A DNA stretch of 25,493 bases, taken from IMG/VR virus record IMGVR_UViG_3300042355_000114, positions 1 to 25,493 of that record; one strand, written 5' to 3'. The DNA comes from a virus. Positions 12,423 to 14,913 of the stretch are shown one piece after another. Positions within the stretch are counted from its first letter, which is position 1. Each line of letters starts with the position of its first letter. The position numbers and the translations under genes are program-made. A model generated the notes under the pieces. That model had not been told where the DNA came from and made no database searches. It was given only the letters and a program-made list of their open reading frames with translations.

Positions 12423-14008
12423 TGGTTCCATGTCCTTTTTAGTACGGTAAAAAAACGGCCTTCACGCTTAAATTCAACGGCGCTCGGTGGCCTGCCCTCG
12501 GTCATTTGCTGGGCCATCTGGTGCAGTTCCGATACCCCATAGTCCAGCGTGACGCCTGCCTGATGGGCAACCTCGGCCAGCAGCCTGCGCGACTTTTCGC
12601 CTGCGTACCCGTCGTGCGTCACTGCCAGATATTCGGTCACTGGCGGGTCTGACAGACCACCGTAGTACGTCACGCTCAACATCTCCCGGCCACTGGCTCG
12701 GCTTATATGCTTGCGCCATGTCCAGCTACTGACTTCCAAGTCAGTACCGTCCTGCCCCATAATGTCCAGATTGTGCAGGCGCAGCGCGGGGCGCTCGGGT
12801 TCGGGGAATGCCTCACCACAAGCCGGGCAGACCCTCACCGATAAGGCGCAGATTTCCTGACAGTGGTCACACACCTTCACCGGCGCTTCGCCCTGCTTGT
12901 CTCCCTTCTTTGGTGGTGGTCGTACGGCAGTGATTGGCCCATGCTGTTCCACCACGCCAGCAAAGTCTAGGACTAGGCAGTCAGTCTTACCCGGCGCGAT
13001 CCGCAGGCCACGCCCGGCCATCTGCACATACAAGCCGGGACTCATGGTTGGCCTCAGCATAGCTATCAGATCAATCCCAGGCGCGTCGAAACCCGTTGTC
13101 AATACGTTGGCATTGGTTAAGGCCCGAATGCGCCCCTGCTTAAAGTCGGTCAGGATGCGGTCACGTTCATTGCTTGGCGTCTCGCCGGTCACGCATTCAG
13201 TGTTGATGCCTTGGGCTTGCAATGCGGTGGCAATATGCTGGGCATGGGCAACCCCGGCGCAAAATATCAACCAAGACCGGCGCTCGGCCCCCAGGCGCAC
13301 TATCTCAGCAGCCACCTTTCGGTTTTTGTCGGTGGTGTCCACCGCAGCCTGTAATTCGGCCTCGATGTACTCGCCGCCACGCTTATGCACCCCGTCCACT
13401 TCCAACTTGGTGGTGGTAAGTTTGCTTCTCAGGGTTGATAGAAACCCTTTGTGAATGAGTTCCTCAATGCTCACCGGCTCAATCAAGGCGTCGAATATGG
13501 CGGGTTTGTCGGTAATGTATCCGTGGCCCAGGCGGTAAGGCGAGGCGGTCAGGCCTATCACCCTCACGTTCGGATTTGTCCGATAGATGTCCGATAGAAG
13601 TGTCCGATAGCCGCCTTCATCCTTGTGGCTCACCAGATGAGCCTCATCTATGATAACCAAGTCAACATGGCCTATTTCCTTGGCCTTGTTCCTGACAGAT
13701 TGGATGCCTGCGAAGGTTATCGGTTCGCCCAATTCTTTCTGGCGCAACCCGGCAGAGTAAATGCCCATTGGCGCGTTGGGCCAGTGTTGGCGCATCTTTT
13801 CGGCGTTCTGCTCAATAAGTTCGCGCACATGGGTCAGCATCAAGATGCGAGTTTCGGGCCAAGATTGCAGCGCGTCCTTGCACAAGGCGGCAATGATGTG
13901 AGACTTACCTGACCCGGTTGGCAGCACCAAACAAGGGTTGCCGGTGTTGCCTGCCTCGAACCATGCGTAAAGTTGATCGATGGTGCGGGTTTGGTAGTCA
14001 CGGAGCAT
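12419..14008 (-). CDS. SF2 DEAD/DEAH-box helicase with zinc-finger insert
   Basis: The product is 529 residues if it starts at the ATG at 14008, which has GGGGGA upstream and shares one base with the methyltransferase stop (TGATG). Counting from one codon earlier, a TTG, motif I is PTGSGKS at 31-37, motif II DEAH at 122-125, motif III LTASP at 154-158 and motif VI QMAGRGLR at 330-337, all intact. At 381-398 CDHC and CPAC form a zinc ribbon; the C-terminal 130 residues are a separate domain not recognised. The family includes ResIII/RecQ-like phage helicases that act in replication initiation or recombination. Its neighbours, methyltransferase, Cas4-like nuclease and VRR nuclease, fit DNA processing. 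Restriction-enzyme R-subunit origin is possible but no nuclease or specificity part is present. Confidence 0.9.
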   Translation of the reverse strand: MLRDYQTRTIDQLYAWFEAGNTGNPCLVLPTGSGKSHIIAALCKDALQSWPETRILMLTHVRELIEQNAEKMRQHWPNAPMGIYSAGLRQKELGEPITFAGIQSVRNKAKEIGHVDLVIIDEAHLVSHKDEGGYRTLLSDIYRTNPNVRVIGLTASPYRLGHGYITDKPAIFDALIEPVSIEELIHKGFLSTLRSKLTTTKLEVDGVHKRGGEYIEAELQAAVDTTDKNRKVAAEIVRLGAERRSWLIFCAGVAHAQHIATALQAQGINTECVTGETPSNERDRILTDFKQGRIRALTNANVLTTGFDAPGIDLIAMLRPTMSPGLYVQMAGRGLRIAPGKTDCLVLDFAGVVEQHGPITAVRPPPKKGDKQGEAPVKVCDHCQEICALSVRVCPACGEAFPEPERPALRLHNLDIMGQDGTDLEVSSWTWRKHISRASGREMLSVTYYGGLSDPPVTEYLAVTHDGYAGEKSRRLLAEVAHQAGVTLDYGVSELHQMAQQMTEGRPPSAVEFKREGRFFTVLKRTWNQ

Positions 14009-14885
14009 CAAAGTCCCCCAAGGAGTCGGTAGGCGGCAGCTGCTTGGAGCGGGACTTGCGCGTTACCCAATCCTTTGAGTCGGTGAACCCGATTGGGAAT
14101 CCCATCAGATGTTCTACCCACTGAGGGTTCAATCGCCCACCATCCTTCTCCACTGCCCAATCCAGCATATCCATGCGGCTCTTGCCGTCCTTGCGTATCA
14201 TTTGTCTCCCCCCCCCCTTGTGAATACGGGCCGTTGGCGTAGGCCACATCCGCACATAACCCGCAAGGCCAAGCATTGAGCTCGACCCGTCCTCGTTCTT
14301 CCTGCGAACCGTCCCCGTACTGGTCTGGAAATGTTTTCCGTGTTTCGCTCGGCGCTCCAGTTCGGGATCTGAGCTCGTCGGCGTAGGTAGCCAAGAGAAA
14401 CCATCTGTCTCTGTGATGCGGCGCTCCGACATCGGATGCGCGTATGCAAAGCCACCTTGTGTCATACCCCAGCGAGGCCAAGTCTCCAAGTACGGTTCCG
14501 AGTCCGTTAGAAAGGATTGCTGATACGTTCTCCAAGAACAACTGTTTTGGTCGTACCACGCTAGCGATTCGCAAGACTTCACGGTAAAGACCTGATCGGG
14601 TTCCATCAGATACGCCTGCTTGCTTTCCAGCGACACTAATGTCTTGGCAAGGGAATCCCGCATGAATAATGTCCACGATGCCGGTGTACTCGGATGGATC
14701 AAACAATTGAACATCCCCCTCCCACACTCGCAAGCCGGGGAACCATCCGTCTGCTGCGCGTTCTCTGAGGATTTGACAGGCATAGGCATCCCACTCAACA
14801 GCGACAACTGGGGTGTGTCCAAGGATGAGGTCGGCAAGGAGTCCACCGCCGTGACCTGCAAAAAGGTGCATGGTTCTTGTTTCAT
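13998..14885 (-). CDS. Overlapping second-frame gene within the methyltransferase gene (possible dual coding)
   Basis: This is an intact 295-codon frame on the same strand as the methyltransferase, shifted so that its codons begin at the second base of methyltransferase codons. Its ATG follows GGGGTGA by three bases, right after the Cas4-like stop. The product is not random-looking: SCSWRTYQQSFLTDSEPYLE (115-134), WPRWGMTQGGFAYAHP, then two WLPTPT/MWPTPT units (165-170 and 213-218), and at the end RLNPQWVEHLMGFPIGFTDS (251-270). From memory, proteins with repeated WPTP units and a terminal LNPxWVEWLMGFPxGWTD are abundant in phages and prophages and annotated as hypothetical. Whether it is translated is unknown; it may be a side effect of constrained methyltransferase codons. 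It overlaps the helicase start by eleven bases. Confidence 0.45.
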   Translation of the reverse strand: MKQEPCTFLQVTAVDSLPTSSLDTPQLSLLSGMPMPVKSSENAQQTDGSPACECGRGMFNCLIHPSTPASWTLFMRDSLAKTLVSLESKQAYLMEPDQVFTVKSCESLAWYDQNSCSWRTYQQSFLTDSEPYLETWPRWGMTQGGFAYAHPMSERRITETDGFSWLPTPTSSDPELERRAKHGKHFQTSTGTVRRKNEDGSSSMLGLAGYVRMWPTPTARIHKGGGRQMIRKDGKSRMDMLDWAVEKDGGRLNPQWVEHLMGFPIGFTDSKDWVTRKSRSKQLPPTDSLGDFDAP

Positions 14886-14913
14886 GTTTCACCCCACTAC
14901 CCTTCCATCCCAC
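14008..14913 (-). CDS. Cytosine-C5 DNA methyltransferase (Dcm-like)
   Basis: A protein of up to 301 residues. Counting from the ATG at 14913: motif I MHLFAGHGGG at 15-24, motif IV GFPCQDIS with catalytic C89, motif VI ENV at 128-130, motif VIII around HHRDR at 166-170, a variable target-recognition region about 175-255, and motif X GLGNAQVP at 281-288. It would transfer a methyl group from S-adenosylmethionine to C5 of cytosine in a short site, protecting phage DNA from restriction. No matching restriction enzyme is seen. The start is uncertain: ATG 14913 has GGAAAGAG upstream, GTG 14892 makes a GTGA overlap with the preceding stop, and ATG 14871 directly opens motif I. The gene is overlapped for nearly its whole length by another frame (13998-14885) and contains a G10 tract. 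Confidence 0.9.
   Translation of the reverse strand: MGWKGSGVKHETRTMHLFAGHGGGLLADLILGHTPVVAVEWDAYACQILRERAADGWFPGLRVWEGDVQLFDPSEYTGIVDIIHAGFPCQDISVAGKQAGVSDGTRSGLYREVLRIASVVRPKQLFLENVSAILSNGLGTVLGDLASLGYDTRWLCIRASDVGAPHHRDRWFLLATYADELRSRTGAPSETRKTFPDQYGDGSQEERGRVELNAWPCGLCADVAYANGPYSQGGGETNDTQGRQEPHGYAGLGSGEGWWAIEPSVGRTSDGIPNRVHRLKGLGNAQVPLQAAAAYRLLGGL
14208..14217 (-). repeat. G10 homopolymer inside the methyltransferase gene
   Basis: Ten consecutive C on the plus strand, ten G on the coding strand, encode the SQGGGE segment of the methyltransferase and, in the other frame, HKGGGR. Runs of this length slip during replication and are the classic switch of phase-variable methyltransferases in bacteria. 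A change of one base here would fuse the N-terminal part of one frame to the C-terminal part of the other or to the third frame. Confidence 0.85.

Follow-up and report, generated by a model that had tools for sequence, protein, structure and literature searches.

A probable two-subunit C5-cytosine methyltransferase of phages and prophages, with the recognition and motif IX part nested in the +1 frame of the catalytic gene

M.EcoHK31I, M.AquI and M.EaeI are C5-cytosine methyltransferases made of two polypeptides. The small subunit of M.EcoHK31I is reportedly nested in the gene of the large one, in another frame, an arrangement said to have been described by Lee, Kam and Shaw in 1995. The large subunit of this enzyme, which acts on YGGCCR, carries motifs I to VIII and X together with a predicted recognition domain, and the small subunit contributes only motif IX (PMC3404938); the YGGCCR enzymes have a clear TL motif (PMC2413257). 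In M.AquI (CYCGRG), motifs I to VIII are found in one chain and the recognition region and motif IX in the other (PMC3404938). Actinophage methylases can also contain the ShiLan domain, an out-of-frame insertion of an HNH endonuclease (PMC11855218). The literature searched, which covered few subscription papers, contained no description of the kind of dual coding reported below for phage methyltransferases, nor of its spread through phages and prophages of many phyla.

The locus analysed here lies in a 25.5-kb phage contig, called the window throughout (the whole stretch of 25,493 nucleotides), which also encodes a terminase, portal, scaffold, primase-helicase, Sak4-like annealing protein, Cas4-type exonuclease and helicase. 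A preliminary description of the sequence had proposed two intact frames on the same strand, one of them a C5 methyltransferase with C89 in PCQ, ENV and GLGNAQVP, and both frames, on the minus strand, as well as all three motifs were confirmed. The methyltransferase frame, alpha, is open from the first GTG at 14913 to 14008, and its probable start is the GTG at 14892 (14008-14892), which overlaps the TGA of the upstream exonuclease-like gene (14891-14889) as GTGA. The second frame of the same DNA and strand, beta, is almost wholly nested within alpha and encodes 295 amino acids from its candidate start, ATG 14885 (13998-14885, minus strand). This ATG lies seven bases past the GTGA, and the ends or starts of three genes are found inside ten bases (14885-14892). 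Position 2 of the beta codons coincides with the alpha wobble position, and the beta wobble position with position 1 of alpha; since the two wobble positions fall on different bases, selection on each frame leaves distinct marks.

Alpha carries the features by which a C5 methyltransferase is recognised, namely motif I (FAGxGG), PCQ (motif IV), ENV/ENS (motif VI), motif VIII and motif X. In the window it comprises motifs I to VIII, with PCQ at 14652, ENV and motif VIII, and motif X (GLGNAQVP, 14073-14050), and motif IX is absent; the combination of motif IX and a recognition domain in the same chain, a further mark of these enzymes, is not found in alpha. It matches phrog_363 (E=4e-59) and Pfam PF00145 (E=1.2e-33), the latter only over profile positions 2-169 of 324. 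Dual-coded genes from other genomes likewise cover only positions ~1-196 of the 324 in PF00145, compared with 1-321 in canonical enzymes. The invariant residues are present across 70 relatives and motif X occurs in all 70 alpha proteins, while motif IX and the TL core, both sought in the same proteins, occur in none (0/70 each). In the AlphaFold model of alpha the catalytic core is predicted with confidence and, by Foldseek, matches M.HhaI; residues 183-247, a stretch governed by the beta frame, have a pLDDT below 50 and are predicted to be disordered. Alpha is a methyltransferase frame without motif IX and without a folded recognition region.

Shadow frames of conserved proteins resemble one another, and for this reason the second frame was judged against codon shuffling, in which each methyltransferase is recoded by permuting its own synonymous codons. 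For the window, 20,000 such shuffles yielded a mean of 4.9 second-frame stops and a probability of 0.00045 for none; when the codon usage was taken from six other genes of the window, the mean rose to 8.7 and P(none) was < 5e-5. The real third frame has 14 stops. These values bear out the earlier suspicion that so long a stop-free run is unlikely by chance, and the evidence from the family is far stronger. A tblastn search with the second frame matched 91 phage records, and loci were gathered either via this frame, which brings a selection bias, or via the methyltransferase N-terminus alone (up to the start of LASLGYD), which gave the only set free of that bias, the 80 loci closest to the window's methyltransferase. 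Both frames were matched in 266 of 268 loci; of the two exceptions, L009 is a fragment and L010 the window's own locus in truncated form. In these 266 relatives, drawn from phages, prophages and metagenomes, the frames always overlap and always in the same +1 phase (266/266), and the earlier supposition that dual coding is a property of the whole family is supported.

When 174 lineages (80% protein clusters, GC 43-69%) were scored, the real second frame exceeded all 60 shuffles in 173 of them, typically with ~250 bits against ~70. Strong depletion of second-frame stops begins, family-wide, only ~15 codons before PCQ, and between 10 and 90 codons past PCQ there are none in 150 lineages, against ~295 expected. 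Among the usable lineages collected by the N-terminus only, the second frame stays open over the whole stretch that begins at PCQ and ends 20 codons short of motif X in 39/39 (2.2 expected) and the third frame in none of the same 39; segment limits were set by regular expression in two analyses, with a few loci omitted, nine of them in this openness test. As a negative control, nine canonical C5 enzymes encoded in the same host genomes scored 0 bits, with stops as in their shuffles.

Substitutions reveal on which frame selection acts. Between the window and its relative L003, methyltransferase codons 1-80 differ by 7/5/21 changes at positions 1/2/3, whereas codons 81-220 differ by 17/3/3 (Fisher P=9e-5 for the contrast); the latter segment (14229-14648, minus strand, P0002 numbering) displays the beta-type pattern against the nearest relatives. 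Extending the comparison to 77 separate close pairs, compared pairwise and not in a tree-based model, the wobble share of position 1 and 3 changes is ~0.75 before motif IV and 0.66-0.90 in most bins up to PCQ+20, with one bin at 0.50. It is 0.51-0.67 from PCQ+20 to +80, drops to 0.00-0.42, with most values under 0.3, over the 100 codons that precede motif X, and reaches 0.92 directly after this motif. Pooled changes at positions 1/3 stand at 252/776 versus 181/37 (P=2e-59). The methyltransferase frame governs the substitutions upstream of motif IV and beyond motif X; the profile of the wobble share indicates that in the middle both frames are under constraint, and from motif VIII to X mainly the second. 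Synonymous change in the methyltransferase frame, singled out beforehand as a check on dual coding, is reduced both against L003 and in the 77 pairs. Throughout the family, each frame is conserved at the protein level. Of the two outcomes envisaged in the preliminary description, shuffles, stop depletion, substitution patterns and negative controls settle the matter in favour of the overlooked overlapping gene and against the annotation artefact. An artefact of codon bias was also considered and is ruled out by the shuffles, the negative controls and the substitution patterns.

The product of the second frame can be approached through its family and its motifs. Its residues 72-271 match positions 39-282 of the phrog_1008 profile (E=6.5e-25), which makes beta a member of PHROG 1008 ('DNA methyltransferase'), an entry that carries no remark on overlap with another methyltransferase frame or on subunit status. 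Beta alone has no match in Pfam, NCBIfam or PDB, whole-length HHalign comparisons with canonical methyltransferases and with alpha gave no match, and its structure model is poor, with a confidence too low for structural comparison (pLDDT 56). The identity of beta is drawn from fused relatives and a short motif. Its C-terminal end, LNPxWVEWLMGFPxGWT, resembles canonical motif IX (LTPREcARLQGFPDxF). In the window this motif-IX-like segment, LNPQWVEHLMGFPIGFTD (14079-14132, minus strand), lies over alpha IEPSVGRTSDGIPNRVHRL. The preliminary description had linked the motifs of the two frames in two places: its overlay of beta WPRWGMT on alpha LASLGYDT holds (14460-14480, minus strand; TWPxWG is kept in the family alignment), but the terminal segment falls just before GLGNAQVP and not over it. 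Two PTPT units on the minus strand precede the motif-IX-like end, LPTPTS over alpha ATYADEL (14373-14390) and WPTPTA over alpha VAYANGP (14229-14246), the second 32 residues upstream of motif IX. They resemble the TL motif of C5 recognition domains, P(STCA)PT(ILV)(TASV), and the spacing from WPTPTA to motif IX fits that motif (PMC2413257). Of 95 beta proteins, 60 contain the core P[STCA]PT, where residue-shuffled controls predict 2.8.

Such resemblance of motifs, taken by itself, would be a weak link, and the fusions found in actinophages constitute the stronger one. In the actinophage loci L306 and L022, phrog_1008 positions 131-323 are matched in the methyltransferase frame, after motif VIII (E ~2e-57), and the PF00145 match of L306 (1-314) spans this very part, which identifies the C-terminal half of beta with the recognition/IX(/X) part of a complete single-chain enzyme. 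The stretch of L306 homologous to LNPQWVEHLMGFPIGFTD is found in frame, between the recognition domain and motif X. These sequence matches establish homology between the C-terminal half of beta and the recognition/IX part found in single-chain C5 enzymes, and beta is most likely the part that recognises the DNA target. Both single-chain actinophage enzymes, L306 (2468-3616, 2712-3113) and L022, have repeated LPTPTxxD units in the methyltransferase frame. In two further actinophage loci, L016 and L310, the recognition region, motif IX and motif X are all in the second frame, a split like that of M.AquI, and L025 has motifs IX and X in the first frame, with the recognition region left in the second. 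Among these loci the parts across both frames sum to a full set.

Other relatives show further variation of the same region. Beta usually has no annotation as a gene of its own; in L013 (Paenibacillus phage Bloom) and L016 (Mycobacterium phage Inventum) both frames or split pieces are already annotated, without comment, as two 'DNA (cytosine) methyltransferase' genes. Compared with the window, L005 (3001-3876) has the whole stretch from the last PTPT unit to motif IX replaced between near-identical flanks, and neither frame is interrupted in either version; the pattern looks like an exchange of specificity cassettes for the target. The N-terminal half of beta (C-ESLAxYDxxxxSWxTxQ...TWPxWGxMRxG) overlaps motifs IV-VIII and is conserved in the second frame family-wide. 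It has no counterpart in canonical enzymes, and in an actinophage set that includes the single-chain enzymes it exceeds codon-shuffle expectation in the +1 frame in 38 of 42 loci.

Considering all of this, we regard it as quite probable that the stretch encodes a two-subunit C5-cytosine methyltransferase in which beta, with the recognition region and motif IX, is nested in alpha. The second product, left unidentified in the preliminary description, is best read as this part of the same enzyme. Alpha would fold as the catalytic domain with motifs I to VIII and X, and the flexible stretch linking these motifs would be mostly a by-product of the beta frame. Beta would provide the missing parts, namely motif IX and the region of target recognition in which the PTPT units lie, and the two chains would pair into one working methyltransferase that may methylate the phage DNA, probably as a protection against host restriction. 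The two-polypeptide enzymes M.EcoHK31I and M.AquI (PMC3404938) offer a precedent for this reading. We infer that beta is translated as a separate chain, binds alpha and sets the target, and that the enzyme serves to protect the phage DNA. A simple two-subunit model does not account for the N-terminal half of beta, which remains in the second frame even in L306.

The main rival accepts that the beta frame is real and has it reached by frameshifting or slippage from alpha, which would give a fused chain of motifs I-VIII, recognition region and motif IX. The place where beta begins bears directly on this question. The preliminary description had beta initiate at 14885; the frame is open from this ATG and a plausible ribosome site is present, but the claim found no support, as the first ~78 codons of beta evolve as plain methyltransferase codons, with no sign of second-frame selection near the window. 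Beta need not start there, judging from the sequences compared, and internal candidates in the window include ATG 14714, 14663 and 14606. Across the family no beta start is conserved beyond chance, which speaks for the frameshift: an internal ATG after PCQ occurs in 56 loci against 56.1 expected, and GAT at the candidate codon is not enriched but rather depleted. A homopolymer, the run of ten C at 14208-14217 (ten G on the coding strand), lies within both frames. Three near relatives from different metagenomes (L006-L008) have nine C instead of ten, which swaps the C-termini, such that the methyltransferase N-terminus runs into beta motif IX and the N-terminal half of beta stops; this fusion also speaks for the rival. 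The alternate frame is conserved among the relatives as a whole and interrupted, in these three, by a one-base change; the shorter tract could reflect phase variation, or else a sequencing error in the homopolymer that all three share. In genes of the L016 type one +1 shift would produce a complete enzyme. In the window, though, the fusion would be without motif X, which is present only in the alpha frame, L025-type genes would require two shifts, and beta is conserved far upstream of any required junction (0 stops from PCQ+10), where a fusion has no need of it. We therefore hold the frameshift to be unlikely.

A second possibility is that beta functions separately, for instance as a regulator or anti-restriction factor of the phage, and merely shares the methyltransferase DNA. 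Its N-terminal half, without known counterpart and in the second frame even where the enzyme is a single chain, would suit such a protein. Yet the methyltransferase frame misses precisely what beta has, actinophages have the C-terminal half of beta in the methyltransferase's own frame, and no stand-alone beta without a methyltransferase frame occurs among the 266 loci, all of which makes a separate function quite improbable. That the second frame should be a mere shadow of methyltransferase motifs and codon bias, without selection of its own, is hardly credible: all conserved beta motifs do overlie conserved methyltransferase motifs, as in the pairs VAYANG/WPTPTA and EPxVGRxxDGIPNRV/LNPxWVEWLMGFPIG, and ~70 of the 250 bits of similarity survive codon shuffling, but the codon-shuffle, stop-depletion and substitution-pattern tests with their negative controls refute it.

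Read as a nested two-subunit enzyme, the locus stands close to the described systems without coinciding with any of them. It resembles M.EcoHK31I in that alpha has motifs I-VIII and X and beta, by homology via L306 and L022, would have motif IX; it differs in that M.EcoHK31I keeps the predicted recognition domain in its large subunit, whereas alpha has neither a TL core nor a fold there, and in that selection before motif X acts on the second frame. The split of M.AquI is matched by the actinophage loci L016 and L310, including motif X next to IX in the second frame; in M.AquI motif X belongs to the small subunit, whereas in the window the large frame retains it and the two frames overlap over almost their whole length. 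With ShiLan the locus shares a hidden second frame in a phage methylase gene, an open methylase frame and a disordered host-frame product (PMC11855218), but ShiLan is a mobile insertion of an unrelated nuclease, and the second frame of the window belongs to the conserved body of the enzyme itself. What is new with respect to the known two-polypeptide enzymes is the recognition region in the nested frame together with dual coding across a whole family.

Altogether, it seems likely that a very widespread clade of phage and prophage C5 methyltransferases, found in many bacterial phyla and on archaeal contigs, represents an ancient pair of overlapping genes on the same strand, in which the catalytic gene holds the recognition/IX subunit in its +1 frame, and that the recognition region and motifs IX and X have changed frame in the course of evolution; on this account most annotations of these genes describe a one-chain enzyme and omit the specificity subunit. 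If this is true, many 'stand-alone' C5 methyltransferases of phages and prophages would be half-enzymes whose specificity subunit is hidden in the other frame. Single ORFs, once cloned, would then look inactive, and predictions of specificity made from the annotated frame would rest on a meaningless stretch. The family is a large and old case of same-strand overlapping genes with strong statistics, suited to the study of how two proteins share one DNA, and the actinophages offer natural intermediates in the form of nested, AquI-like split and single-chain versions.
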